This document shows, one piece after another, positions 27,223 through 61,139 of a stretch of DNA of 64,000 bases. The position numbers and the translations under genes are program-made. The notes beneath the pieces are model-generated. The model worked only from the letters and a program-made list of their open reading frames with translations, had not been told where the DNA came from and did not search any database. Source of the stretch: Spiroplasma taiwanense CT-1 (GTDB lineage: Bacteria; Bacillota_I; Bacilli_A; Mycoplasmatales; Mycoplasmataceae); NCBI RefSeq assembly GCF_000439435.1, contig NC_021846.1, positions 62,001-126,000 on the forward strand, written 5' to 3'. Positions within the stretch are counted from its first letter, which is position 1. Every line of letters starts with the position of its first letter.

Positions 27223-27375
27223 AATTAATCACCTAATTATAATTATAATGATTTTTTATAAATAATAATTTTAAATATTTATTTACCTTTATTCAAAATA
27301 AAAAATAAAATTTTATTTGTAAGTATAGTTTTTTACATTTTTTTTGATTAAAATAAAAATGTAAATTAAATAAAC

Positions 27376-27440
27376 GGCTTATATATTTCAACATAAAGGG
27401 TTGAAGTTTCTACAATACACCAATGTATTAGCTATGAGCA
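27376..27440 (+). promoter_or_regulatory. Purine-type riboswitch aptamer upstream of nucleoside transporter
   Basis: P1 GCTTATA (27377) pairs with TATGAGC (27433). P2 is TTCAAC / GTTGAA with 7-nt loop ATAAAGG. The junction GTTTCTAC matches the purine aptamer core, and the last junction GCTAT has C at the ligand-reading position, which suggests a guanine-type ligand. P3 is short (AATA / TATT, or AATACA / TGTATT). The loop GG and CC needed for loop-loop pairing are kept. The final junction has G where A is usual, so ligand specificity is uncertain. Confidence 0.78.
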
Positions 27441-27461
27441 TAATATATGTGTAAAAAGGAG

Positions 27462-29019: not shown

Positions 29020-30549
29020 GTGGTAAATAATATTATTGAAATGAAAAATATTACTATGATATTTAATAAAAAAATTATTGCTAACGAAAATATTGATCTC
29101 GAAATTAAAGAAGGAGAAATTCATGCGTTGATTGGTGAAAATGGTGCAGGAAAGTCAACTTTGATGTCAATTCTTTTCGGTATTTATAATCCAACAAAAG
29201 GAACAATAAAAATAAGAAATAAAGAAGAAGTTATTTCAAATCCAATTAAGGCAAATAGATTAGGAATTGGAATGGTGCATCAACATTTTAAAATGGTGGA
29301 TATTTTTCCTTTATGAAGAAATATTTCTTTGGGTTCAGAAAAAAGATTAGGTAAAATGTTTATTGATTCAAAAACAATAAAAGAAGATATTTCAAATATT
29401 ATGAAAAAATATAATTTAAATGTTGATTTAAATATTAATGCTGAACATGCAACTGTTGGTATGAAACAAAGAGCTGAAATACTAAAAATTTTATATCAAG
29501 AAAATGATATTTTAGTTTTTGATGAGCCAACTGCTGTTCTTACACTACAAGAAATTGATGGTTTTTTAGAAGTCTTATTAGAATTACAAAAAAATGGAAA
29601 AACTATTATATTGATAAGTCATAAAATGAATGAAATAAAAAAAGTTGCAAATAGAGCAACAGTTTTACGTAGAGGTAAAGCAATAGGAACTTATGATTTA
29701 AAGAATACTTCAATTGATATTTTGTCTGAAGCAATGGTTGGAAGAAAACTAGTGGAAATAAAGAATAATTTTACTAATAAGAATAAAACAAAATTATTAG
29801 AATTAAGAAATATTTCTGTTCATAAAAAAGGTTATAAAAAAATTCAAGCTTTAAAAAATATTTCCTTTGAAGTAAAAAGAGGTGAAATTGTTGCTATAGC
29901 TGGTGTTGAAGGAAATGGTCAATTAGAATTGGCAGAGGCAATTTCAGGAATGACACGTCCATTTCAAGGTGAAATTTTTATTAATGAAGAGGATATAACA
30001 AAAAAAGGAATATCTCAAAGATTTATAAAGTACAAAATGTCACATATTCCTGAAGATAGACATAAACACGGATTGGCATTAGATTGAAATTTAATAAATA
30101 ATTCAGTTTTTGAAGATATTTCAACTCCAAACTTTTCAAGAAAGGGTATTTTAAGAAAAGGTAAAATGCAAAAACATGCTCAAGAAATTATTGAGAAATT
30201 TGATGTAAGAAATGCAGATTTTGGTTTTTCTATTGCTCGTCAATTATCAGGGGGAAATCAACAAAAATTAATTATAGGAAGAGAAATGTCAAGAGAGTCA
30301 GATTTTTATTTAATTTTTCAACCAACTAGGGGATTAGACATTGGTTCAATTGAATTTATACACTCAGAAATATTAAAGTTAAAAAATGAAAATAAAGGTA
30401 TTTTACTAATATCTTATGAGTTATCAGAAATTATTTCACTTGCAGATAGGATATTAGTTGTTAACTCTGGTGAAATAATCGGAGAAATTGAAGGTGTCAA
30501 TGCTGATAGAACAGTTATTGGAAAAATGATGATGGGGGTGAAAAATTAA
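29020..30549 (+). CDS. rnsA: Nucleoside ABC transporter ATPase (two ABC domains)
   Basis: 509 residues with tandem ABC modules of the RbsA/sugar-nucleoside type. The first has Walker A GENGAGKST (near residue 45) and VFDEPTAVL; its signature region reads VGMKQRAEI. The second has a degenerate Walker A GVEGNGQLE, the usual asymmetry in this family, then LSGGNQQK and QPTRGLD. TGA is Trp at 29314. GTG start with AAGGAGA 7 nt upstream. The stop overlaps the first permease by 1 nt (TAATG). Confidence 0.95.
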
Positions 30550-49412: not shown

Positions 49413-49461
49413 TTGACTTTTATTTTAAAATGAATTAAATTAAAAAAACAACTATGTTGTT
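49413..49461 (+). promoter_or_regulatory. nrdJ promoter with inverted repeat at the start site
   Basis: TTGACT (49413) and TAAATT (49436) with a 17-nt spacer. Just downstream, AACAAC TAT GTTGTT (49447-49461) forms a perfect inverted repeat around the expected transcript start, and could be an operator. No cobalamin riboswitch precedes nrdJ. Confidence 0.6.
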
Positions 49462-49477
49462 TAAAGGAGAGAAAAAA

Positions 49478-51964
49478 ATGGGCTATAAAAAGGAACAAAT
49501 TAATAATTTGAATAATAATATTAAAAAATATTTTAATCATTTATATGAAATAGAAGATACAGATAAAATGTTTTTTGATGGTGTCTCAAGAATGGTAATG
49601 CTAGATAGATATTCACAAAAAGATAAAAATTTAATTTCACTGCAAATTGGAGATTTAATAATAACTACTGTAAAAGCTGATTCTGTTTTTCCCAGTAGGG
49701 CAATTGGATATGTTAAAGAAATAAGAGAAAATAATAATTATCTTATTGAAATTGAAGAAAACTACATTAATTCAATTGACCATGAATTATTAAAGCAGAC
49801 TAATTCAGAAAATTTAATTATAAAACAAAAATATGAATTAGAAAAACCATTAGAATTATTTTTTGAACAAATTGCAAAAAGAGTTGGTCATAATTTGGCA
49901 AAAGTAGAAAAAGAAGAGTTAAGAGAAGAAATAGGGCATAAATTTGCAAAAGAGTTAGAGAATTAAATATAATTCCAGCAGGTAGAGTTTTATATTGAGC
50001 AGGTAGTGGAAGTGAAGTTACTTATTTTAATTGCTATGTTATGCCTTTTATTAAAGATGATAGAATGGGAATTTCAAGTCATAGATCTCAAGTAACAGAA
50101 ATTATGTCAAGAGGAGGAGGAGTTGGAACAAATGGTTCTACTTTGAGACCAAAAGGAGCTCCTGCAAAATCAGTTGGGGGAAGATCTAGTGAAGCAGTTT
50201 CTTGATTGAATGATCTATCGCTTTTAACTCACTTAATTGAACAAGGAGGTTCAAGAAGAGAGGCTCAGATGATTATGCTTGCCGATTGACATCCTGATAT
50301 TATTGAATTTGTTGTTTCAAAAATGCAAAACTCAAGTATATTACTTTGATTAAGAAATAATTCACCAAGTGAATTAATTCGTCAAGAAGCAAATAATAAA
50401 TTACGATTTGAATACTTAAATGATTTTGAATTAAAAATGTATGAATCAATTGTAAAAAATAAAGATAATGTTGATAAAGAAGTTTTAGATGAAACTCAAG
50501 AAAAATTAAAAATTGGTGGAAGGTGAGTTGTTTCAAATCCAGAATTTATTACAGGTGCAAATATTTCGGTTACAATTTCACATAAATTTATGAAGGCAGT
50601 TGAAGAAAACCTTGATTGAGAATTAAAATACCCAGATTTAGAAATTCTTACAAAAGAGCAAAAATATTTTTATGACAATAAATGATCTGAAATTGGAGAT
50701 ATTTTTGAATGAGAAAAACTTGGATATCCTTTAAAAAATATAAGAAAATTAGGGCAAAAGATTTGGGAGATTTAATTAATTTTTGTGCAACTTATTTAGC
50801 AGAACCTGGAATTTTCTTTTTAGACGCGGCAAACGATATGAAAAATGCAAAAAGTTATGGGCAAAAAATTGTTGCTACAAATCCATGTGGAGAACAACCA
50901 CTTGCACCATATTCGGTATGTAATTTATCTGCAATAAATTTGTCAAATTTTGTTAATAAGGATACAAAAGAAATTCTTTATGACAAATTAAAAAATACAG
51001 TGGAGGTCTGTGTAAGAATGCAAGATAATGTAATTGATTCAACTCCTTATTTTTTAGAAGAAAATAAAAAACCAGCTCTTGGAGAAAGAAGAGTTGGTTT
51101 AGGTGTTATGGGATTACATGATTTATTAATTTGAGCTGGTATAAAGTATGGTTCAAAAGAAGGAAATAAAATAGTCAATAAAGTATTTGAAACAATAACA
51201 GTAACAGCTTATAAAACTTCAATAGAATTAGCAAAAAAAAAGGATCTTTTCCTTTTTTAGAAGATAGAAGTAAATTTATTCAATCAGGTTTTATGAAAAA
51301 AATGTCAAAAGAAATTCAAGATTGTATTATTAAATTTGGATTAAGAAACTCACACTTAATAACAGTAGCTCCAACAGGTTCAACAGGAACTATGGTTGGT
51401 TGTTCAACAGGGTTGGAACCATATTTTGCTTTTAGTTATTTTAGAAGTGGAAGACTTGGAAAATTTATGGAAGTAAAAGCAAAAATTGTTGAAGATTGAT
51501 TGTTACTAAATCCTACTTTTAAAGATAAACCTCTTTCAGAATATTTTGTAAGTGCAATGCAATTATCTCTTGAAGATCATGCAGATGTTCAATGTATAAT
51601 TCAAAGGTGAGTTGATTCTTCAATTTCAAAAACTGTTAATGCTCCAAAAGGATATAAAGTTGAACAAGTAGAAAAAATATACATGAGACTATATAAGGGC
51701 GGTGCCAAAGGATGGACTGTTTATGTTGATGGAAGTAGAGATTCTCAAGTTCTTTCTCTTGAATCGACAGATACAGAAGAAGTTATAGAAGAAAAATTAT
51801 TACCAATTAATGAGCAAGATATTCCAAAAAAAATTACAAAGGAGCAAAAAATAGGAAATGATGTTGGTTATTTGTGCCCTATGTGTACAATTGGAACTTT
51901 AATTGAATCAGCAGGTTGTATAACTTATGCTAATTGTGGAGCACAATTGAAATGTGGTTTATAA
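49478..51964 (+). pseudogene. nrdJ: Class II adenosylcobalamin-dependent ribonucleotide reductase, three frameshifts
   Basis: NrdJ reduces ribonucleotides using a radical made from adenosylcobalamin, without oxygen or a second subunit. Read across frames it is complete, about 828 residues. IMSRGGGVGTNGSTLRPKGAPAKSVGG, GGSRREAQMIMLADWHPDI, the active-site loop NPCGEQPLAPYSVCNLSAINL and APTGSTGT are intact, as is a C-terminal Cys cluster (CPMC..C..CG..KC) typical of NrdJ. Frame changes, all -1, fall near 49960, in A-runs near 50733, and near 51243. Unless slippage rescues it, no full-length enzyme is made. TGA reads as Trp at many sites. Confidence 0.9.
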
Positions 51965-51992
51965 GAATTAGAATTTAATCCAATTCTTTTTA
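51963..51992 (+). terminator. Terminator after nrdJ
   Basis: AAGAATT / AATTCTT hairpin with a T-run, separating nrdJ from the B12 locus. Confidence 0.7.
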
Positions 51993-52024
51993 ATTTTAAA
52001 AATCTTTTTTATAATTTTTATAGA

Positions 52025-52030
52025 TATAAT
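52025..52030 (+). promoter_or_regulatory. -10 element for B12-locus transcript
   Basis: TATAAT about 20-30 nt before the aptamer. No convincing -35. Confidence 0.5.
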
Positions 52031-52049
52031 GAAATTGAAATTTAAACAC

Positions 52050-52225
52050 ACACTATAAGGGAATTTGGTTAAAAGCCAAAACTGTAACAGCAGCTGTAAT
52101 GGGAATTAAATATTATATAATCATTGGAATTAATTTTCTGAGAAGGATATATTTAAGATGAACCAAAGTTAGGATACCTTATTTTTATGTAATATTTTAT
52201 TATTCTTTTACTGGCTATGAAAGAA
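52050..52225 (+). promoter_or_regulatory. Cobalamin riboswitch 1 (upstream of B12-locus genes)
   Basis: Consensus cobalamin aptamer elements in order: GGGAATTTGGTTAAAAGCC (52059), AACTGTAACAGCAGCTGTAAT (in two parts, 52079-52099), and the B12 box AAGTTAGGATACCTT (52166-52180), then ACTGGC at 52209. Two conserved positions differ from the second copy at 57125: GCTGT for ACTGT, and TTAGG for the invariant TCAGG/CAG of the B12 box. This aptamer may already be weakened. A terminator follows, so B12 binding would have stopped transcription of the uptake genes. Confidence 0.87.
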
Positions 52226-52254
52226 AATATTTATTTAAAATAAATGTTAATTAG

Positions 52255-52287
52255 ACACGATTGTAAAAAATCGTGTTTTTATTTCAC
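52255..52287 (+). terminator. Expression-platform terminator of cobalamin riboswitch 1
   Basis: ACACGATT / AATCGTGT stem followed by T-run; same CACGAT core and downstream TTTTTATTTCACT as the platform of riboswitch 2. Confidence 0.88.
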
Positions 52288-52314
52288 TATTATTTATTAA
52301 TTGGAGAAAACGAT

Positions 52315-53333
52315 ATGAAAAAAATATTATCATTATTAAATAGTTTTAGTTTGGCAATTTCAACTTTTGTATTTTTATGCACAAATATAATTTCTTGTTC
52401 AATTCCTAAAGTGGCAGATTAGGATTTTATTGATTATAGTTATATTAAAGATACTCAAAAAAATTTAGAAAAAATCTTTTTTAAATGAAATAATATTAAA
52501 AATAATTATATAAAATCTTATATGGTAAATAATTCTATAATAAAAGTTGATCAGCAAAAATTTGAAAATAATGAAATATTTATTCAAGATATTAATAAAA
52601 AAGTTATTGATATTTTTTCTTCTAATTTAAGAATGTGAAAACTGATTGAAAATAATTTAACTTTAAATCCAGAAGATTTAAAGTTAGACTTACAAAAAAT
52701 AGATTCAGTTGCAACTACATCAAATCAATATATGTTTAAATATTTTTCATTAAAATTAAGTTTTAAGGATGATGAAATAAATTTTTTTAATATAGTAGGA
52801 AAAATTTATAATTATAATTTTGTTCCTATTGAAATATTAAATAAAGATACTTTTATAGAATTAAATAAAAATATTGAAAAAGCACAAAATAAATTTATTT
52901 CACAAGAAGCATTTATAACAATTGCATTTAATGGAAATGAAAAACAAAATATAATTTGTACTAAGGAAAATATTGGCTCACAAATTGGTGAAGAAGGTTG
53001 TGACTGAGATGGAGAGCAATGAGTTTCTATCAACGAGTTAAAAAAAGATAATTTGGTTTTTTGTCAGTTAGACTAAGAAGCATTGGATTGCTTCCTATAA
53101 ATAGAAAATTAAAAATTGAAGATATCGAAATTGATGTTTATTCTGGAATAAATAGTTGAAACACAGAAAGTAAACCTTATATAGATGAAAATGATTTAAA
53201 TAAAATAATCTTTAAAAAACAAAATAATTTTGGTCCACATTCTATTTTATTTAAAACTAATATAAGATACTCAAAAGATAGTAATGAAAAAATTGAAATA
53301 TGAGGATCATATTTAAAAAAAATTAATTATTAG
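52315..53333 (+). pseudogene. Lipoprotein of the B12 locus, broken
   Basis: ATG 52315 after TTGGAG begins a lipoprotein signal (MKKILSLLNSFSL...NIISC, Cys near residue 31). In-frame TAG at 52420 cuts it six codons after the Cys. The frame is then open to 53076, where LVFCQLD ends in TAA, while the continuation RLRSIGLLPINRKLKIEDIEI lies one frame over, across a T-run near 53057. The C-terminal part runs to TAG 53331. No family recognised. First gene after the B12 riboswitch, so it was probably a cobalamin- or corrinoid-binding surface lipoprotein; that is inference from position only. Confidence 0.72.
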
Positions 53334-53345
53334 AGGAATTTGTTT

Positions 53346-53771
53346 ATGAAAAAATATAAAATTGCAGTAAATATTTTAACTATTTTTTTAGTTTTCTTTA
53401 TTATTTTATCTTCAATCTTTATTTATAAATTTTTTACTTTTAAAAATGATGTTGTAAATAGTGAAAATAATAGTTTTTTAAAAGTAAAAGTATTTAATCA
53501 GGATGAAATAATTTTGGAAGAAAGAAAAGAAAATGTTATTGGTTTAAGTTTATTAAATGTTTTAAAAAATGATTCAAGATTTGTTTTTAGTGCTCAAAAT
53601 TTTTTAAAAAAAATTTTGGAAATTGAAAATGCAAATAATTTTTTTTGAATGATCTATTCTGCGACTCATAATTCATGTAAAGATGAAATTAATTTTTCAT
53701 CTAATGTTGGAGCAGCGGATTTATATTTAGCAAGGGAAAATGATTTTGTTTTTAAATTCGAAAAATTTTAG
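53346..53771 (+). CDS. Membrane-anchored DUF4430-like (transcobalamin-type) protein
   Basis: 141 residues: one N-terminal membrane helix (residues 8-32) and an outside domain. The C-terminal block FFWMIYSATHN...NVGAADLYLARENDFVFKF matches the pattern of DUF4430 domains (aromatic-Trp near the strand, then Gly-Ala-x-x-Tyr, then Asp-x-Val), which also occur in cobalamin-binding proteins such as transcobalamin/intrinsic factor C-terminal domains. TGA at 53646 is the conserved Trp. It is the only unbroken gene of the B12 locus. AGAGGA 8 nt before ATG. Overlaps the S-component gene by 32 nt. Confidence 0.68.
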
Positions 53772-54267
53772 TTCTAATTTTAGAGCTACTTTCAATATAA
53801 CTGTTTTAGCTTTATATTTGGTATTAGTTTTTATTTCTCAAATAGTTTTATTTTTTGTTCCAAATGTTGAACTAGTAACTTTATTAATTGCATATTCAGT
53901 TGTTATTTTTAAATTTGGATTTTCATTATCAATTAGTCTAATTTTTTGTTTTTTATAAGGATTATATTATGGTTTTGGAGATTGAATAATAACTTACTTT
54001 ATTATTTGACCCTTACTTGTTAATGTTATTTTTATTTTTAAAAAAGCAAAAATATTAAATTGTTTTACATTTATTTTTATTTGTACTTTATTTGGCTTTT
54101 CTTTTGGAGCAATTGATTCCTTATATAATAAATTTATTTTTTATACATATTGAATTAAGGGTCTTATTTTTGATTTGATTCATGGTTGTTCAAATTTCTT
54201 AATTGCATTTTTTTGTTATAAACCCTTGATAAATATTTGAAATTTAACTTTAAAGAAATATTTTTAA
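53740..54267 (+). pseudogene. ECF transporter S component (cobalamin-type), nonsense codon
   Basis: Six-helix S-component fold of about 175 residues. The second half, DWIITYFIIWPLL, GAIDSLYNKF and GLIFDLIHGCSNFLIAF, resembles S components of the CbrT kind. An in-frame TAA at 53956-53958 (FCFL-stop-GLYYGFG) cuts it at residue 72. S components bind the vitamin and dock onto a shared EcfAA'T module. Its place between a DUF4430-like protein and cobO, under a B12 riboswitch, points to cobalamin. The next gene starts 1 nt after its stop. Confidence 0.72.
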
Positions 54268-54268
54268 A

Positions 54269-54801
54269 ATGAAAATTATTTTGGAACTAAAAAATATTTC
54301 AAAGAAAATTAATGGAAAAAAAATTTTGGATAATAGTTCATTCAAAGTAAATCAAGGAGCAATAGTTGGGTTTTTAGGTAATAATGGTTCTGGAAAAACG
54401 ATGTTGATGAAATTAATTTTTGGCGAAATAAAAAAAGATTTTGGCGAAATATTATATTTTGGTAATAGTATTTTCTTAAATAATTTTTTGCAAGAAATTA
54501 GTTTTTTTCCTGATTTAAATAATATTAATTTAAATTTTACAGTCAAAGAATATTTATTTTACATTGAAAAATTATTAAATAAAAAATGTGTAACAATTTT
54601 TTAACAACTCACTTGATTGAAGAATTAGAAGATTTAATAAATTACTTAATAGTAATTGATAATGGAAGAATAATTTATGAGAATCACTTTGATTTTAAGA
54701 AGCAAAAAATTAAAAATATATATAATAAATTAATTAATTTTAATAAAATTGATATGAATAAAATTGAATCTGCATTAAAAGAAATAAAAAATGAAAATTA
54801 A
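54269..54801 (+). pseudogene. ABC transporter ATPase remnant, internal deletion
   Basis: Paralogue of the intact ATPase at 61248. The N-terminal part has Walker A GNNGSGKTM and SFFPDLNNINLNFTVKEYL. The reading frame ends at TAA 54602, and the sequence resumes as LTTHLIEELEDLINYLIVIDNGRI. About 70-80 residues present in the paralogue, including the signature (LSSG) and Walker B (FDEPTA), are absent. It cannot hydrolyse ATP. Confidence 0.85.
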
Positions 54802-56407
54802 CAAAAAAATATTAGTTGTAATAATGAAAATGAATTTTAAAAAGATTTCATTAATATTCCTTTTTTAATTTTATCTATTATTTTTTTTATTTTTAATACT
54901 ATTTTTTTAATGGAATAATTTTGGGATTGTTAACTTTAAGAAATTTGCTTTTCGTAAAATATTCAATAGATATATTACTAATTACATTAATCAATTTATT
55001 TGTATGTTTATTTTTTTTAAAAAATAATATAATGATGGAATGCATAATATTGAAAAAAGATTTGGCGTAAAAATAAAAAATATTTTTTTAATTAGATTTT
55101 TAATTTCAAAAATATTAATCTGACAAATTATTATAATAACTTTTTTAGTTCAATTAATGGGATTTTCTTTAATGGATAATTTACCAAAAGATATATACTT
55201 AACAAAATTAATTTTGCCATTTGCTTTTTATTTTTTATATGATGTTTTTATTTTTTCAATAATTTTATTTTTAATTTTTATAATACATCAGATAATTGTA
55301 ATTTTTATTCCTTTACTAATGAGTTTTTTAATAATTTTAAATCCATTAATTTTTAATTATAAATATTTTAATAATTATGAGGGAAAAGTAGAATATGAAT
55401 TACTAAAAAATCAAACTATATTAACTGCAAAAATTTTTTTAGGGAAAAATTTTAATAATTTTATTAAAAAAAATTATGAATATTCATTTTTAAATAAAGA
55501 ATATTTAGGCTTTAATATTTCATGAAATAATGGAATTCAACATTATTGAGATTTATATGAAAGAGCATTTTATTTTGGTGATATATTTTTTGAAGACTTT
55601 AAAAAAGAATTTTAAAAAAATTCTCCAACTATTTTTAAATTTTTTACAGATATAAATAATTCCTTATTCGAAAATGAATGAATTCAGAATTGCAATAAAG
55701 AATAAATTCCTTTTAACTATGGAAAAGAAGAAAAAAAAGATAAAAGATATTTAAAAAATATGTGTAGTATTTCAGATTTTTCAATTTATTTAAAAAATAA
55801 AAATATAAATCATGGCTTATATAATAATTTACTAATTCATATATCTAACTCATCAATTTTATTTCAATTTCTTAATGAAATGAATAGTGTTATTTCATTT
55901 GCACCTGGAACTAAAGGAGGTTTGATTTTTAAGTATGGTCATACTGATAATAAAGAAGTTACTTTAAATTCTTTAACATTAAATTATAAAACATCAATTC
56001 AGTTAGTTTTTAATTGGTACTTTTTAAATTTATTAAGATCTTCCTTAAATTTTGATACTCAACAACTAATTGCAATTAAAAAACAATCTGAAATTATGGA
56101 CAAATTTAAAATTCAAAACAATTTAAATTTGTTTAATCATTTTTCCTTGCTACGAATGGGGGAAAACCATTTAAATAAAACCTTAGACGATATTTGATCA
56201 ATTATTAGCAATGTTGATATTGGTGTAATAAATAATTATTTCAATATTAATTTAACAAATGAGCAGGAAAAAATTGATACTTCATTAGTAAAAAATGACT
56301 TTAGATTTAGTATTGAAAATTCAGATTTAAATGAAGATTATATTTCAAATATAAAATCAATAGTAATTTATGAAATTATGTTTTTACTTACTTTTTTATA
56401 TTTTTAG
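54791..56407 (+). pseudogene. ABC permease remnant, heavily decayed
   Basis: Hydrophobic fragments interrupted by many stops up to 55140, then two longer open parts (55157-55614 and 55730-56407). Order of membrane segments, then a large soluble domain, then a last membrane helix matches the intact permease at 61994. Recognisable pieces include WNNGIQHYWDLYERAFYFG and IVIYEIMFLLTFLYF. It starts overlapping the ATPase remnant as the intact pair does. Function lost. Confidence 0.75.
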
Positions 56408-56466
56408 GGTTTAATTATTTCGGTTATCTTTTTTATAGAAAAAATGAAATTAAAGGAGAAATTTAA

Positions 56467-56986
56467 ATGAAAAAAAGATATTTACATATTTACTGTGGTG
56501 AGGGAAAGGGCAAAACATCCATATTAAATGGAACAGCTATAAGAGCTATTGGAGCAGGCTTAAAAGTTAAATATATTAGATTTTTAAAAAATAGGGAAAC
56601 AAGTGAAAATAAGGTATTAGAAAAAATAGGTATAAAAATTGAGAATTATTATCATTTTTCTAAAAAATTTGTTTGAGAAATGAATCTAGAAGAAGTTGAA
56701 TTATTTAAAAAAAGAGACATTAAAAGGGTATGAAAAATTCACAAATTTACTTCAAGATGATAATGTTGATTTAGTCTTAGCAGATGAAATTTTAGGGGCT
56801 ATTGGAAATGGTTTTATTAATAAAGAAGAAATAATTCAAGTTTTATTAAATAGAAAGCAACATATAGAAGTTGCATTATCTGGAAGGTATTCTTTTAAAG
56901 AATTAAATGATATTGCAGACCTTATTTCCGAAATTACGCCCAGAAAACATTATTTTGAAAAGGGTGTAATTTCAAGAAGGGTTTAG
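56467..56986 (+). pseudogene. cobO: Corrinoid adenosyltransferase CobO/BtuR, frameshifted
   Basis: CobO attaches the adenosyl group to cob(I)alamin, making the cofactor NrdJ needs. The P-loop HIYCGEGKGKTSILNGTAIRA (residues 8-28 in pieces: CGEGKGKTS, NGTAIRA) and later VDLVLADEILGAI and EVALSGRY are clear. The frame changes by +1 in the A-run near 56708, so residues after about 80 are in another frame. Total about 172 residues, normal for the family. TAAAGGAGAAATTTA precedes ATG. Last gene of the B12 locus. Confidence 0.88.
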
Positions 56987-57059
56987 AATTTTAATATTTA
57001 AAAAATTTCTATTTTTTTTTAAAAAAATAATAATTCTTTTTTTAATTTTTTATACCTTT

Positions 57060-57087
57060 TTGCGATATTTTGATATATAAACATAAT
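57060..57087 (+). promoter_or_regulatory. Promoter of the nrdFIE transcript
   Basis: TTGCGA (57060) and CATAAT (57082) with a 16-nt spacer, about 40 nt before the conserved part of riboswitch 2. Confidence 0.5.
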
Positions 57088-57124
57088 AGAAATAAAAAAC
57101 ACAATTTAATATTTAAACAATTTA

Positions 57125-57290
57125 AAAGTTTTAGGGAATTTGGTTAAAAGCCAAAACTGTACCAGCAACTGTATTGGGAATTAAGTATTGTATAACCATC
57201 AGAATTAATTTTTTGAAAAGAATACATTTAAGATGAACCAAAGTCAGAATACCTAGCTTTAAATTTATATATTCTTTTACTGGCTATAAA
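57125..57290 (+). promoter_or_regulatory. Cobalamin riboswitch 2 (upstream of nrdFIE)
   Basis: Same element order as riboswitch 1: GGGAATTTGGTTAAAAGCC (57134), ACTGTACCAGCAACTGTAT (57156), B12 box AAGTCAGAATACCT (57241-57254) and ACTGGC (57279). Its core fits the family consensus better than copy 1 (CAGCAACTGT kept, CAG of the B12 box kept). It controls a B12-independent reductase, a logic known from bacteria that have both B12-dependent and B12-independent isozymes. Confidence 0.88.
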
Positions 57291-57318
57291 AGAGATTATT
57301 TGAAAAATAATATTTTAG

Positions 57319-57345
57319 CCACGATTTTATATCGTGTTTTTATTT
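57319..57345 (+). terminator. Expression-platform terminator of cobalamin riboswitch 2
   Basis: CACGAT / ATCGTG stem with T-run, 140 nt before nrdF. B12 binding would favour it and turn off nrdFIE. Confidence 0.87.
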
Positions 57346-57354
57346 CACTAAATA

Positions 57355-57465
57355 AGTCTAAAAATAACTTGTTTTGTGTAATAATATTTAGGACCTATCT
57401 TTAATGACCCTAAATTTAATTATTTCTATACAAATTTTAAATAATAAAAAGTTAATAGTTAGACT
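57355..57465 (+). promoter_or_regulatory. Possible structured leader between terminator and nrdF
   Basis: AGTCTAA (57355) is complementary to TTAGACT (57459). Inside lie ATTTAGG / CCTAAAT (57386, 57409) and AATTTT / AAAGTT with one G-U (57433, 57448), which would give a three-helix junction ending 8 nt before AGGGGG. It has TTTCTA in the middle junction as purine riboswitches do, but loop sizes do not fit that family. Function unknown. Confidence 0.3.
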
Positions 57466-57485
57466 GAAAGATTGAGGGGGTAATT

Positions 57486-58511
57486 ATGTCTAAACAACAA
57501 AAAAATCAGTATTATAATGAATCTTATTCTCCATTAGAATATGCAATGAATAATTTTACTGGAAAAATGAGATCTGTTAATTGAAATGTAATGAATGATG
57601 AAAAAGATTTAGAAGTATGAAATAGAGTAACTCAAAATTTTTGATTACCAGAAAAAATACCAGTTTCAAATGATTTAGTATCTTGAAAAACATTAACGCC
57701 TGAATGACAAGAATTAATAACAAGAACTTTTACAGGTTTAACTTTATTAGACACAATTCAAGCAACAGTTGGAGATACAGCACAAGTGCCAAATTCATTA
57801 ACAGACCATGAACAAGTAATATATACTAATTTTGCTTTTATGGTTGCAGTTCACGCAAGAAGTTATGGGACAATTTTTTCTACTTTGTGTTCAAGTCAAC
57901 AAATTGAAGAAGCTCATGAGTGAGTTATCAATACAAAAAGCTTACAGGAAAGGGCTAAAGTTTTAATACCATTTTATACTGGAAATGATTCTTTAAAATC
58001 AAAAGTAGCAGCAGCATTAATGCCAGGTTTTTTACTTTATGGAGGTTTTTATTTACCATTTTATTTATCTGCACGTGGTAAGCTGCCAAATACTTCAGAT
58101 ATTATAAGACTAATTTTAAGGGACAAAGTTATTCATAATTACTATAGTGGTTATAAATACCAAAGAAAAATAGAGAAATTGGAACCAAAAAAACAAGAGG
58201 AAATGAAAAAATTTGTTTTTGATTTACTATTTGAGTTAATTGATTTAGAAAAAGATTATTTGAATGAGTTATATGCAGGTTTTGGATTAGCAGAAGAAGC
58301 TATTAAATTTAGCTTGTATAATGCAGGAAAATTCTTGCAAAATTTAGGTTATGATTCACCATTTACAGATGAAGAAACAAGAATAGAGCCTGAAATATTT
58401 ACACAATTATCTGCAAGAGCAGATGAAAATCATGATTTCTTTTCAGGAAATGGTTCTTCTTATGTTATGGGTGTAACCGAAGAAACACAAGATGAGGATT
58501 GGGAGTTTTAA
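57486..58511 (+). CDS. nrdF: Class Ie ribonucleotide reductase radical subunit NrdF (VPK metal-free type)
   Basis: 341 residues, intact. Compared with class Ib NrdF, the ligand positions fall at D89, V120, H123, P180, K214 and H217, with the radical Tyr at 127 (AVHARSYGTIF); spacing equals that of the canonical D-E-H-Y-E-E-H set. Three Glu ligands are replaced by Val, Pro and Lys. This VPK pattern defines class Ie enzymes, as in Mesoplasma florum, which use a Tyr-derived DOPA radical made with NrdI and O2 and no metal in the active state. Strong GAGGGGG ribosome site. First gene of nrdF-nrdI-nrdE under riboswitch 2. Confidence 0.95.
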
Positions 58512-58513
58512 TT

Positions 58514-58978
58514 ATGCATAGTGATGTAATAAGAGTTTCAAGAGAAAAAATATTGAAACCAATGGGTGAAATAATAGTAGTTTACTTTTCTTCGCCATCA
58601 AATAATACTCATAGATTTATTCAAAAACTGGAATTTGAAAATTATAGAATTCCATGAGAAATTGATGAGGAATTAATTGTAAATAAGGAATTTGTAATTG
58701 TAACGCCAACTTACGGAGGCGGAGGATCAGACTTAACAGGTGCTGTTCCAAAACAAGTTATCAAATTTTTAAATAATTATCAAAACAGAAATTTATGTAG
58801 AGGAGTAATAGCTTCTGGAAATACTAATTTTGGCGATACTTTTGCGATTGCTGGACCAATTATTTCTAAAAAATTAAATGTGCCTTTACTTTATCAATTT
58901 GAATTATTGGGAACTGAAAATGATGTTCAAACAATAAAGGAAATCTTAGAAAACTTTTGAGAAGAAGGGGTAAAATAA
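58514..58978 (+). CDS. nrdI: Flavodoxin-like NrdI
   Basis: 154 residues. [18 protein letters not shown] binds FMN phosphate, then [24 protein letters not shown] and [15 protein letters not shown]. NrdI supplies the oxidant (superoxide) that activates NrdF; in class Ie it drives hydroxylation of the active-site Tyr. Lies 2 nt after nrdF and 1 nt before nrdE. TGA is Trp at 58652 and 58958. Confidence 0.96.
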
Positions 58979-58979
58979 A

Positions 58980-61139
58980 ATGAATGAAAAAAATTTTTCT
59001 ACTTTGTCAGGTTCAGAAGAATCAGACGAATATATAAAATTAAATGCAAGATCTAAACTATTTGTTAAAGATCAGGACAACTTTAAATTAGATATTGAAG
59101 CAGCACAACTTTATATGAAAGAACACATTGTTCCAAATACAAAAAAATTTAAAGATGTTAAGGAAAGAATTAATTATTTAGTTGAAAATCAATATTATGA
59201 TGAGAAAATAGTTAATCAATATAATATAAATGAAATTGAAGAAATTACCAAAATTGCTTATGACTATAATTTCAAATTTCCAAGTTTTATGGGAGCATTA
59301 AAGTTTTTTAATGCATATGCATTAAAAAGTTTTGATGGCAAACAATACTTGGAAAATTATGAGGATAGAGTTATTATGAATGCTTTATTTTTAGCAGGAG
59401 GAAATTTTTTAAAAGCTAAAAAAATTATGAAGCAAATAATTACTGGAAGATTTCAACCAGCAACACCAACTTTTTTAAATGCGGGAAAAAAACAAAGAGG
59501 AGAATATGTTTCATGTTATTTACTTAGAGTAGAAGACAATATGGAATCAATTGGTAGAGCAGTTACAACTTCACTTCAATTATCAAAACGAGGTGGTGGA
59601 GTTGCTTTATGTTTAACAAATATTCGTGAATTTGGAGCACCTATAAAAAATATTGAAAATCAAGCTACTGGAATTGTTCCAATAATGAAAATTTTAGAAG
59701 ACTCATTTTCATATGCAAATCAGTTAGGGCAAAGACAAGGAGCTGGTGCTGTTTATTTACATGCACATCATCCGCAAATTCTTGATTTTTTAGATACAAA
59801 ACGTGAAAACGCTGATGAAAAAATAAGAATAAAATCATTGTCACTTGGAATTGTTATTCCAGATATTACTTTTGAATTAGCAAAAAATAATGAACAAATG
59901 GCTTTATTTAGTCCATATGATGTTGAAAAAGAGTATAAAAAAGCTTTTTCAGATATATCAGTAACTGAGGAATATCAAAATCTTTTAAATAATCCTAAAA
60001 TTAAAAAAACTTTTATTGATGCAAGAAAATTATTTCAAGCAATAGCAGAATTACATTTTGAGAGTGGATATCCATATTTATTATTTGATGATACAGTAAA
60101 TAATAGAAATGCACATCCTGGAAGAATTGTTATGAGTAATTTATGTAGTGAAATTGTTCAAGTTTCAACACAAAGTGAATTTTCATCAGATTTAAGTTTT
60201 AAAAAAATTGGTGAGGATATTTGTTGTAATTTAGGAAGTATTAATATTGCAAAAGCAATGGAAAGTGGAACAGAATTTGAAGAATTGATTTATAATTCAA
60301 TTCTTGCATTAGATCATGTTTCAAGAAATAGTGATTTGTCAAGTGCCCCATCTATTGAACAAGGAAATAAAAAAAATCATGCAGTTGGTTTAGGTGCTAT
60401 GAATTTACATGGATTTTTAGCAACAAATTTCATTTATTATAATTCAAGTGATGCTATAGACTTTACAAATATGTTTTTTTATACAATGGCATATTATTGC
60501 TTTAAAGCTTCAAATAAATTAGCAAAAGAATTTAGTCCTTTTGAAGGATTTAGCAAAACTAAATTTGCTGATGGAAAATATTTTGAAAAATATACAAAAT
60601 GTGAAGAAAATAAATGAACACCAGAATCAAAGACAGTTTCTGAGTTATTTAAAAAATTTAATGTCGAGATACCATCACAAAAAGATTGAATTGAATTAGT
60701 TGAAGAAATTAAAAAAACTGGAATTGCTAATTCACACTTAATGGCAGTTGCTCCAACAGGGTCAATTAGTTATTTATCTTCATGTACACCAAGTTTGCAA
60801 CCAGTTGTTGCTCCAGTTGAAGTAAGAAAGGAAGGAATGCTTGGTCGTGTTTATGTGCCAGCTTATAATATAAATTTTGATAATATGGGATATTATTCAC
60901 TTGGAGCATATGAAGTTGGACCAGATCCAATAATTGATATTGCTGCAGCTGCACAACAACATGTAGATCAGGCTATTTCATTAACTTTATTTATGACAGA
61001 CCAAGTCACAACTCGTGATTTAAATAAAGCTTATATAAGAGCTTTTAAAAAAGGTTGTGCTTCAATTTATTATGTAAGGGTGAGACAAGAAGTTCTTGAA
61101 GATAGTGAAAATTATGAATGTGATGCATGTGTAATTTAA
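58980..61139 (+). CDS. nrdE: Ribonucleotide reductase large subunit NrdE
   Basis: 719 residues, intact. The N-terminal 10/11-strand barrel entry [21 protein letters not shown] (first active-site Cys), [27 protein letters not shown] (thiyl-radical Cys), CCNLGSINI, and [20 protein letters not shown] are in place. The C-terminal redox pair is CDACVI. TGA is Trp at 60615 and 60687. It reduces ribonucleoside diphosphates with NrdF. Ends at a strong terminator. Confidence 0.97.

Follow-up and report, generated by a model that had tools for sequence, protein, structure and literature searches.

In Streptomyces, a cobalamin riboswitch lies before nrdABS, which encodes a B12-independent ribonucleotide reductase, and the genome also encodes the B12-dependent enzyme NrdJ. 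A B12 element likewise precedes nrdDG in Desulfovibrio vulgaris and Desulfuromonas, whose genomes also carry NrdJ, and B12 repression of the B12-independent isozyme was proposed earlier for other bacteria (PMC545781). We examined a stretch of 64,000 nucleotides from Spiroplasma taiwanense CT-1 (NC_021846.1, positions 62,001 to 126,000; hereafter the window), in which a class II reductase gene (nrdJ), a B12 uptake and adenosylation locus and the class Ib operon nrdFIE follow one another, the last two each behind a cobalamin riboswitch. Drawing on the parts, their lesions, homology, co-occurrence and a covarying antiterminator, we conclude that the region very probably once let B12 decide which of two ribonucleotide reductases was used and has since decayed, with the B12 half dead and NrdFIE the sole reductase.

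As in the systems above, a riboswitch of the same Rfam family precedes the B12-independent isozyme, and NrdJ lies elsewhere in the genome. The present system differs in its target, class Ib nrdFIE of a mollicute, in a further riboswitch copy at the uptake locus and, within the window, in the decay of NrdJ, of the uptake locus and of both riboswitches. The nrdJ-cbrS-cbrT-pduO cluster of Lactobacillus delbrueckii (PMC5997447) also places NrdJ beside a CbrT-type S component of an energy-coupling factor (ECF) transporter and a corrinoid adenosyltransferase, but that enzyme is of the PduO type there and of the CobO type here, and the present locus adds a transcobalamin-beta-like protein, in some genomes an ABC-2-type pair of ATP-binding cassette (ABC) genes, and predicted riboswitch control of nrdFIE. 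Within the same family, Mesoplasma florum has a 2'-deoxyguanosine (2dG-I) riboswitch before nrdF (PMC12268651; RF01510). It stands before the same nrdFIE operon but senses a deoxynucleoside, not the cofactor of a rival enzyme, and its aptamer is unrelated.

The regulatory logic is known; what appears to be new is the group, the mollicutes, in which the circuit is caught falling apart. As the preliminary description of this DNA had supposed, the literature searched, which covered few subscription papers, held no account of such a circuit in mollicutes. A 2009 survey found nickel and cobalt use both lost in 88% of 17 Mollicutes, and its two nickel users carry urease (PMC2667541). In contrast, a B12-dependent reductase is encoded in about one third of the Spiroplasmataceae genomes of the present set, and many have a complete uptake and switching circuit.

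A dead NrdJ beside a whole NrdFIE

The window was scanned with Rfam cmscan, and genes were read under genetic code 4 and assigned to families with NCBIfam (Table 1). Positions 49484-51961 encode a class II NrdJ (NF005991, TIGR02504; pieces at E 2.5e-34 to 3.4e-98) that matches the intact NrdJ of a genome of the same genus, G015, at 77-83% over four frames' worth of pieces (tblastn). The gene had been described as broken, and it is: each of the four pieces falls below the NF005991 cut-off of 854 bits and no full-length open frame exists, which makes it a pseudogene. The accompanying claim that nrdFIE is intact was borne out as well, with nrdF, nrdI and nrdE each a single full-length open frame scoring above the curated class Ib cut-offs. 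Intact genes, pcrA (722 codons) and nrdE (719 codons), flank the broken locus.

Amino-acid differences confined to one lineage were counted among the window, G015 and a further relative, G003. In NrdJ there are 101 in the window, compared to 20 in G015 and 24 in G003, and in NrdF the corresponding numbers are 18, 10 and 17. The excess in the window's NrdJ is significant (Fisher P=7e-4).

B12 uptake and adenosylation genes

All genes between the two riboswitches are split except that of a small anchored protein (53346-53771). The breaks reported earlier in the S component, the ABC pair, the lipoprotein and cobO are all present, and this unbroken gene is an addition to the gene content first listed. 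CobA/CobO occupies 56467-56980 in two pieces (NCBIfam, tblastn); homology searches of 49478-51964 and 56467-56986 assigned NrdJ and CobA/CobO, respectively, and no other family. The deletion in the ABC ATPase gene removes the signature and the Walker B region.

The 174-residue membrane protein of G015, which corresponds to the S component, goes unrecognised by Pfam and NCBIfam. A profile built from 18 homologues matches 6fnp_A (E 3.4e-16), and 6FNP is ECF-CbrT, the B12 transporter from the L. delbrueckii cluster named above (PMC5997447). AlphaFold2 gave the intact protein six helices at a predicted local distance difference test (pLDDT) score of 92, and Foldseek placed ECF S components at the top of its matches (probability near 1, weak E-values). 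By profile and by fold, the membrane protein of the locus resembles a CbrT-type ECF S component, and the window's copy is broken. Its lineage-only differences number 23, 24 and 28, with no excess in the window, so the loss looks recent.

The fold of the small anchored protein of G015 is that of the transcobalamin beta domain (5np4, E 7.5e-6; 3u7z, E 1.1e-7), and the Pfam model DUF4430 matches it weakly (17.9 bits vs 23.8). Judging by this homology, it is a putative cobalamin-capturing, transcobalamin-beta-like protein.

The ABC pair was considered as the module that energises B12 uptake. The pair belongs to the locus, as the same gene order in G003 indicates, but it is of the DrrA/ABC-2 type, with paralogues at window positions 29029 and 61248, and EcfT lies elsewhere; that role was rejected on these grounds. 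The search proposed for ECF parts and other B12 enzymes in the rest of the genome found EcfT outside the locus (G000:C2:974796) and no PF02310, NrdD or FecCD protein.

Three genomes (loci L234, L236 and L238, at 1498-2574) encode a 358-residue fusion of a CbrT-like S component and CobO, directly behind nrdJ and before a transcobalamin-like gene.

Whole circuits in relatives and co-occurrence across the family

Intact versions of the locus had been suggested as a check and were found in the same genus and family (G015 and G003). In G015, an 843-residue NrdJ, a flavin adenine dinucleotide (FAD) oxidoreductase, a cobalamin riboswitch, the small anchored protein, the 174-residue membrane protein and CobO follow one another, all open, and a second cobalamin riboswitch lies elsewhere, directly before nrdF. 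The order in G003 is riboswitch, lipoprotein, small anchored protein, membrane protein, ABC ATPase, ABC permease and CobO, also all open, and these six genes stand in the same order as window positions 52315-56986.

Co-occurrence was assessed in 60 Spiroplasmataceae genomes. nrdJ is full-length or nearly so in 20 of them (counting an apparently broken copy in G054) and nrdF is present in 40. cobO accompanies nrdJ in all 20 genomes, the S component in 19 of them. Of the 10 genomes that have both enzymes, 8 show a strong cobalamin riboswitch before nrdF; of the 29 with nrdF only, none does (P=7e-7, a value that overstates independence, as the genomes are related). This distribution is the pattern predicted by repression of the B12-independent isozyme. 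NrdJ together with a B12-independent reductase behind a riboswitch occurs in eight relatives; NrdJ of the window is broken. Members of a second family (f5: G028, G076, G081, G098, G102 and others) also have a riboswitch before nrdF, mostly with a second one before the S component.

The G054 nrdJ (L146, G054:C1:347896-350425) seems broken near the N-terminus, with two frames and one TAA, perhaps an independent start of the same loss. In G072 and again in G073 (loci L062, L063, L144 and L264), one riboswitch closely resembles the other copy of the same genome, a hint of gene conversion or recent duplication. Ten genomes (G022, G040, G050, G052, G055, G056, G060, G061, G067 and G069), most of them more than 94% complete, gave no nrdF, nrdJ or NrdD match.

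Riboswitch cores and expression platforms

Cobalamin riboswitches had been placed before the B12 locus and before nrdFIE, and both leaders pass the RF00174 gathering cut-off of 31.5 bits (scores in Table 1). By descent they are RF00174 members; whether they sense cobalamin is doubtful. Each departs from five near-invariant sites, compared to at most three (mean 0.45) in 38 copies from nrdJ-bearing genomes, and the two are the most altered at these sites among 48 family riboswitches (46 others). The conserved ligand-binding core is intact in neither, and the sites altered in the nrdFIE copy include the GRGAAG and CAYTR motifs. The B12 half is in decay, as first described, and both riboswitches have eroded with it. 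Riboswitches of nrdJ-less genomes outside the window's lineage are on average just slightly more altered, so erosion after nrdJ loss is not universal.

In both platforms P13 bears the loop CUGGCUA; a second strand matches all or nearly all of this loop as its complement and is overlapped by the 5' arm of an intrinsic terminator. When the transcript up to the terminator 3' arm was folded, most homologues formed an antiterminator that excludes P13. The antiterminator covaries, with C-G to U-A and U-A to C-G changes occurring together in G072 and G073 (score matched by 1 of 500 shuffles). In the window, all six antiterminator pairs are present in the nrdFIE leader. One G-C pair is gone from the B12-locus leader, and the helix is absent from its predicted fold. 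From these folds we predict that the B12-locus riboswitch is OFF, its antiterminator broken, and that the nrdFIE riboswitch is ON, its antiterminator kept; the altered core of the latter suggests that B12 sensing has probably been lost there too.

Ligand response, transport, ON and OFF states and order of loss in the following scheme are what we infer. In the ancestral circuit, whole in G015, cobalamin would be captured by the membrane-anchored transcobalamin-like protein, enter through the ECF S component of the CbrT type and be adenosylated by CobO to serve NrdJ, as homology suggests. Plentiful cobalamin would bind both riboswitches, L13 would dock on L5 and the antiterminator would be blocked, whereupon the intrinsic terminator would halt the uptake locus and nrdFIE while the B12-dependent enzyme works. 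With no cobalamin, L13 would pair with the terminator 5' arm and both operons would be read. In the window, the uptake-locus switch would be OFF through loss of the antiterminator and the nrdFIE switch ON through loss of core residues with the antiterminator kept, which would leave NrdFIE as the only reductase. What the window holds is predicted to be not so much a functioning switch with one dead arm as a switch that failed on the safe side. That this lineage is abandoning B12-dependent DNA precursor synthesis, as was originally suggested, is supported by the circuit, its decayed B12 half, the intact nrdFIE and the whole versions in relatives.

Alternatively, only the uptake and NrdJ genes may be dead, and the nrdFIE riboswitch may still sense cobalamin or a related corrinoid and repress its operon. 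Its score above the Rfam cut-off and its retained L5, L13, antiterminator and terminator fit this view, but the five altered sites, the two motifs among them, do not, and repression of the sole reductase would be harmful in a genome with NrdJ, CobO and importer broken and no FecCD, PF02310 or NrdD found. We therefore consider continued sensing unlikely.

Miniature elements in relatives in which no B12 genes were found

Six nrdJ-less genomes (G002, G006, G008, G013, G017 and G019) have, before nrdF, a shortened riboswitch homologue without the long P6 arm. In five of the six it scores 22-27 bits against RF00174, below the cut-off; a model of the miniature (R1) finds full-length cobalamin riboswitches, including both window copies at E ~3e-5. 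RNAalifold applied to miniature plus platform returned a mixed fold with little covariation, and the helices were then set by hand. In five miniature genomes, the invariant columns were 40 of 41 in the P4-P5/L5 block, 21 of 21 in P13 and 38 of 41 in the antiterminator strand plus terminator, compared with 162 of 499 four-fold sites of nrdFIE and pcrA in the same genomes (Fisher P ~1e-17, 1e-10 and 1e-14, respectively). The miniature is under strong purifying selection, and the view of the six leaders as decaying remnants was rejected after this test. Variation does occur in the miniature's short P6 and closing helices, and part of it is compensated (7 pairs changed on both sides). L5, L13, antiterminator and terminator are those of the window's nrdFIE leader. 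In the nrdF tree, the six genomes form a clade with three others whose element is ruined, and the window's genome lies outside it.

NrdJ, CobO, CbrT-like and FecCD genes were sought in the six genomes and none was found, nor did any PF02310 match exceed the cut-off; B12 sensing by the miniatures via another importer was rejected for these reasons. The miniature was also sought upstream of further genes that could point to its ligand, with no convincing result, the strong matches being one per genome and always before nrdF. We tentatively suggest, as a possibility below even chances, that after B12 loss the miniature (an aptamer of ~100 nucleotides plus P13, antiterminator and terminator) was re-tasked to another ligand or signal controlling the sole reductase, with the window's nrdFIE leader as an early, independent stage; a new ligand is speculation. 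The conserved miniature may matter more than the broken circuit itself.

The window's nrdFIE leader might itself be re-tasked to another signal, like the miniatures of the sister clade, and not be on its way out. Its homology to the miniatures and the elements held in common speak for this, but the leader keeps the long P6 arm that they lack, its lineage falls outside their clade and that lineage is represented by one genome. We find this quite improbable.

Weighing the case for a broken isozyme switch

Sequencing or assembly errors in a circuit that is intact in the strain are a most implausible source of the breaks: one nrdJ frameshift does lie in a run of ~10 A (near 51235), a common error site, but the lesions include an 84-codon deletion and several stops, are confined to one locus flanked by intact genes, and are accompanied by excess amino-acid change in NrdJ and by altered conserved riboswitch sites.

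Several points count against a decayed, B12-controlled choice between reductases. Most of the antiterminator covariation stems from a single lineage (G072/G073), and the ON and OFF predictions derive from minimum-energy folds of AT-rich RNA. The nrdJ genes of G003 and G015 are unusually alike (90%); if horizontal transfer made them so, the acceleration seen in the window may look larger than it is. Finally, G003 and G074 have both enzymes and no riboswitch before nrdF.

If the window is such a remnant, it shows a circuit midway through its loss and forms with its relatives a graded series: the whole circuit, a broken one with eroded switches, the miniature without B12, a relic, and none. This series makes it testable how an essential gene governed by a riboswitch persists once the ligand is lost. 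In the window, failure of the switch seems to have left the essential operon ON and the dead locus OFF.

Feature coordinates and other riboswitches

Table 1. Features of the window, with nrdF leader elements of related genomes in the last two rows
Feature	Position	Strand	Details
nrdJ pseudogene, class II adenosylcobalamin-dependent ribonucleotide reductase	49454..51964	+	four pieces, three frameshifts; NF005991, tblastn
Cobalamin riboswitch aptamer of B12 locus	52058..52179	+	RF00174, 44.8 bits; five near-invariant sites altered, including L5 loop
B12-locus expression platform (predicted)	52203..52281	+	P13/L13 52203-52225; antiterminator strand 52252-52257 minus one pair; terminator 52256-52281
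Lipoprotein pseudogene	52315..53333	+	one stop, one frameshift; homologue of G003 375-residue lipoprotein, tblastn 28-42%
Putative membrane-anchored transcobalamin-beta-like (DUF4430-like) gene	53346..53771	+	unbroken; tblastn 34% to G003; model of the family matches transcobalamin beta domain
CbrT-like ECF S component pseudogene	53740..54267	+	stop TAA 53956-53958; 51% to G015
ABC ATPase pseudogene	54269..54801	+	~84 codons deleted
ABC permease pseudogene	54793..56407	+	several stops; tblastn 41% to G003 permease 83-550
cobO/cobA pseudogene (corrinoid adenosyltransferase)	56467..56986	+	one frameshift near 56705; 77% and 61% to G015 CobO
Cobalamin riboswitch aptamer of nrdFIE	57133..57254	+	RF00174, 38.3 bits; five near-invariant sites altered; L5 kept
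nrdFIE expression platform (predicted)	57273..57342	+	P13/L13 (L13 57281-57286); antiterminator strand 57313-57321 intact; terminator 57320-57342
nrdF, class Ib reductase beta	57486..58511	+	intact; NF010572, 621.6 bits vs cut-off 486
nrdI	58499..58978	+	intact; TIGR00333 above cut-off
nrdE, class Ib reductase alpha	58980..61139	+	intact; TIGR04170, 966.6 bits vs cut-off 750
Miniature elements	L073-L076, L078, L079		~270-360 nucleotides upstream of nrdF in G002, G006, G008, G017, G013, G019
2dG-I riboswitch RF01510 before nrdF	L085:2633-2696(-), L130:833-896, L138:921-984, L096:1215-1278		

In four genomes from other lineages of the family, nrdF is preceded by the 2dG-I riboswitch, and similar leaders occur in more; one and the same operon has had different riboswitches. 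Weak cobalamin-riboswitch matches with a short P6 (24-30 bits) were seen in genomes of another family (L286, L287 and L288), and in G109 and G143 they precede FecCD-type importer genes. Elsewhere in the window, a purine riboswitch scores above the Rfam gathering score at 27359-27454.

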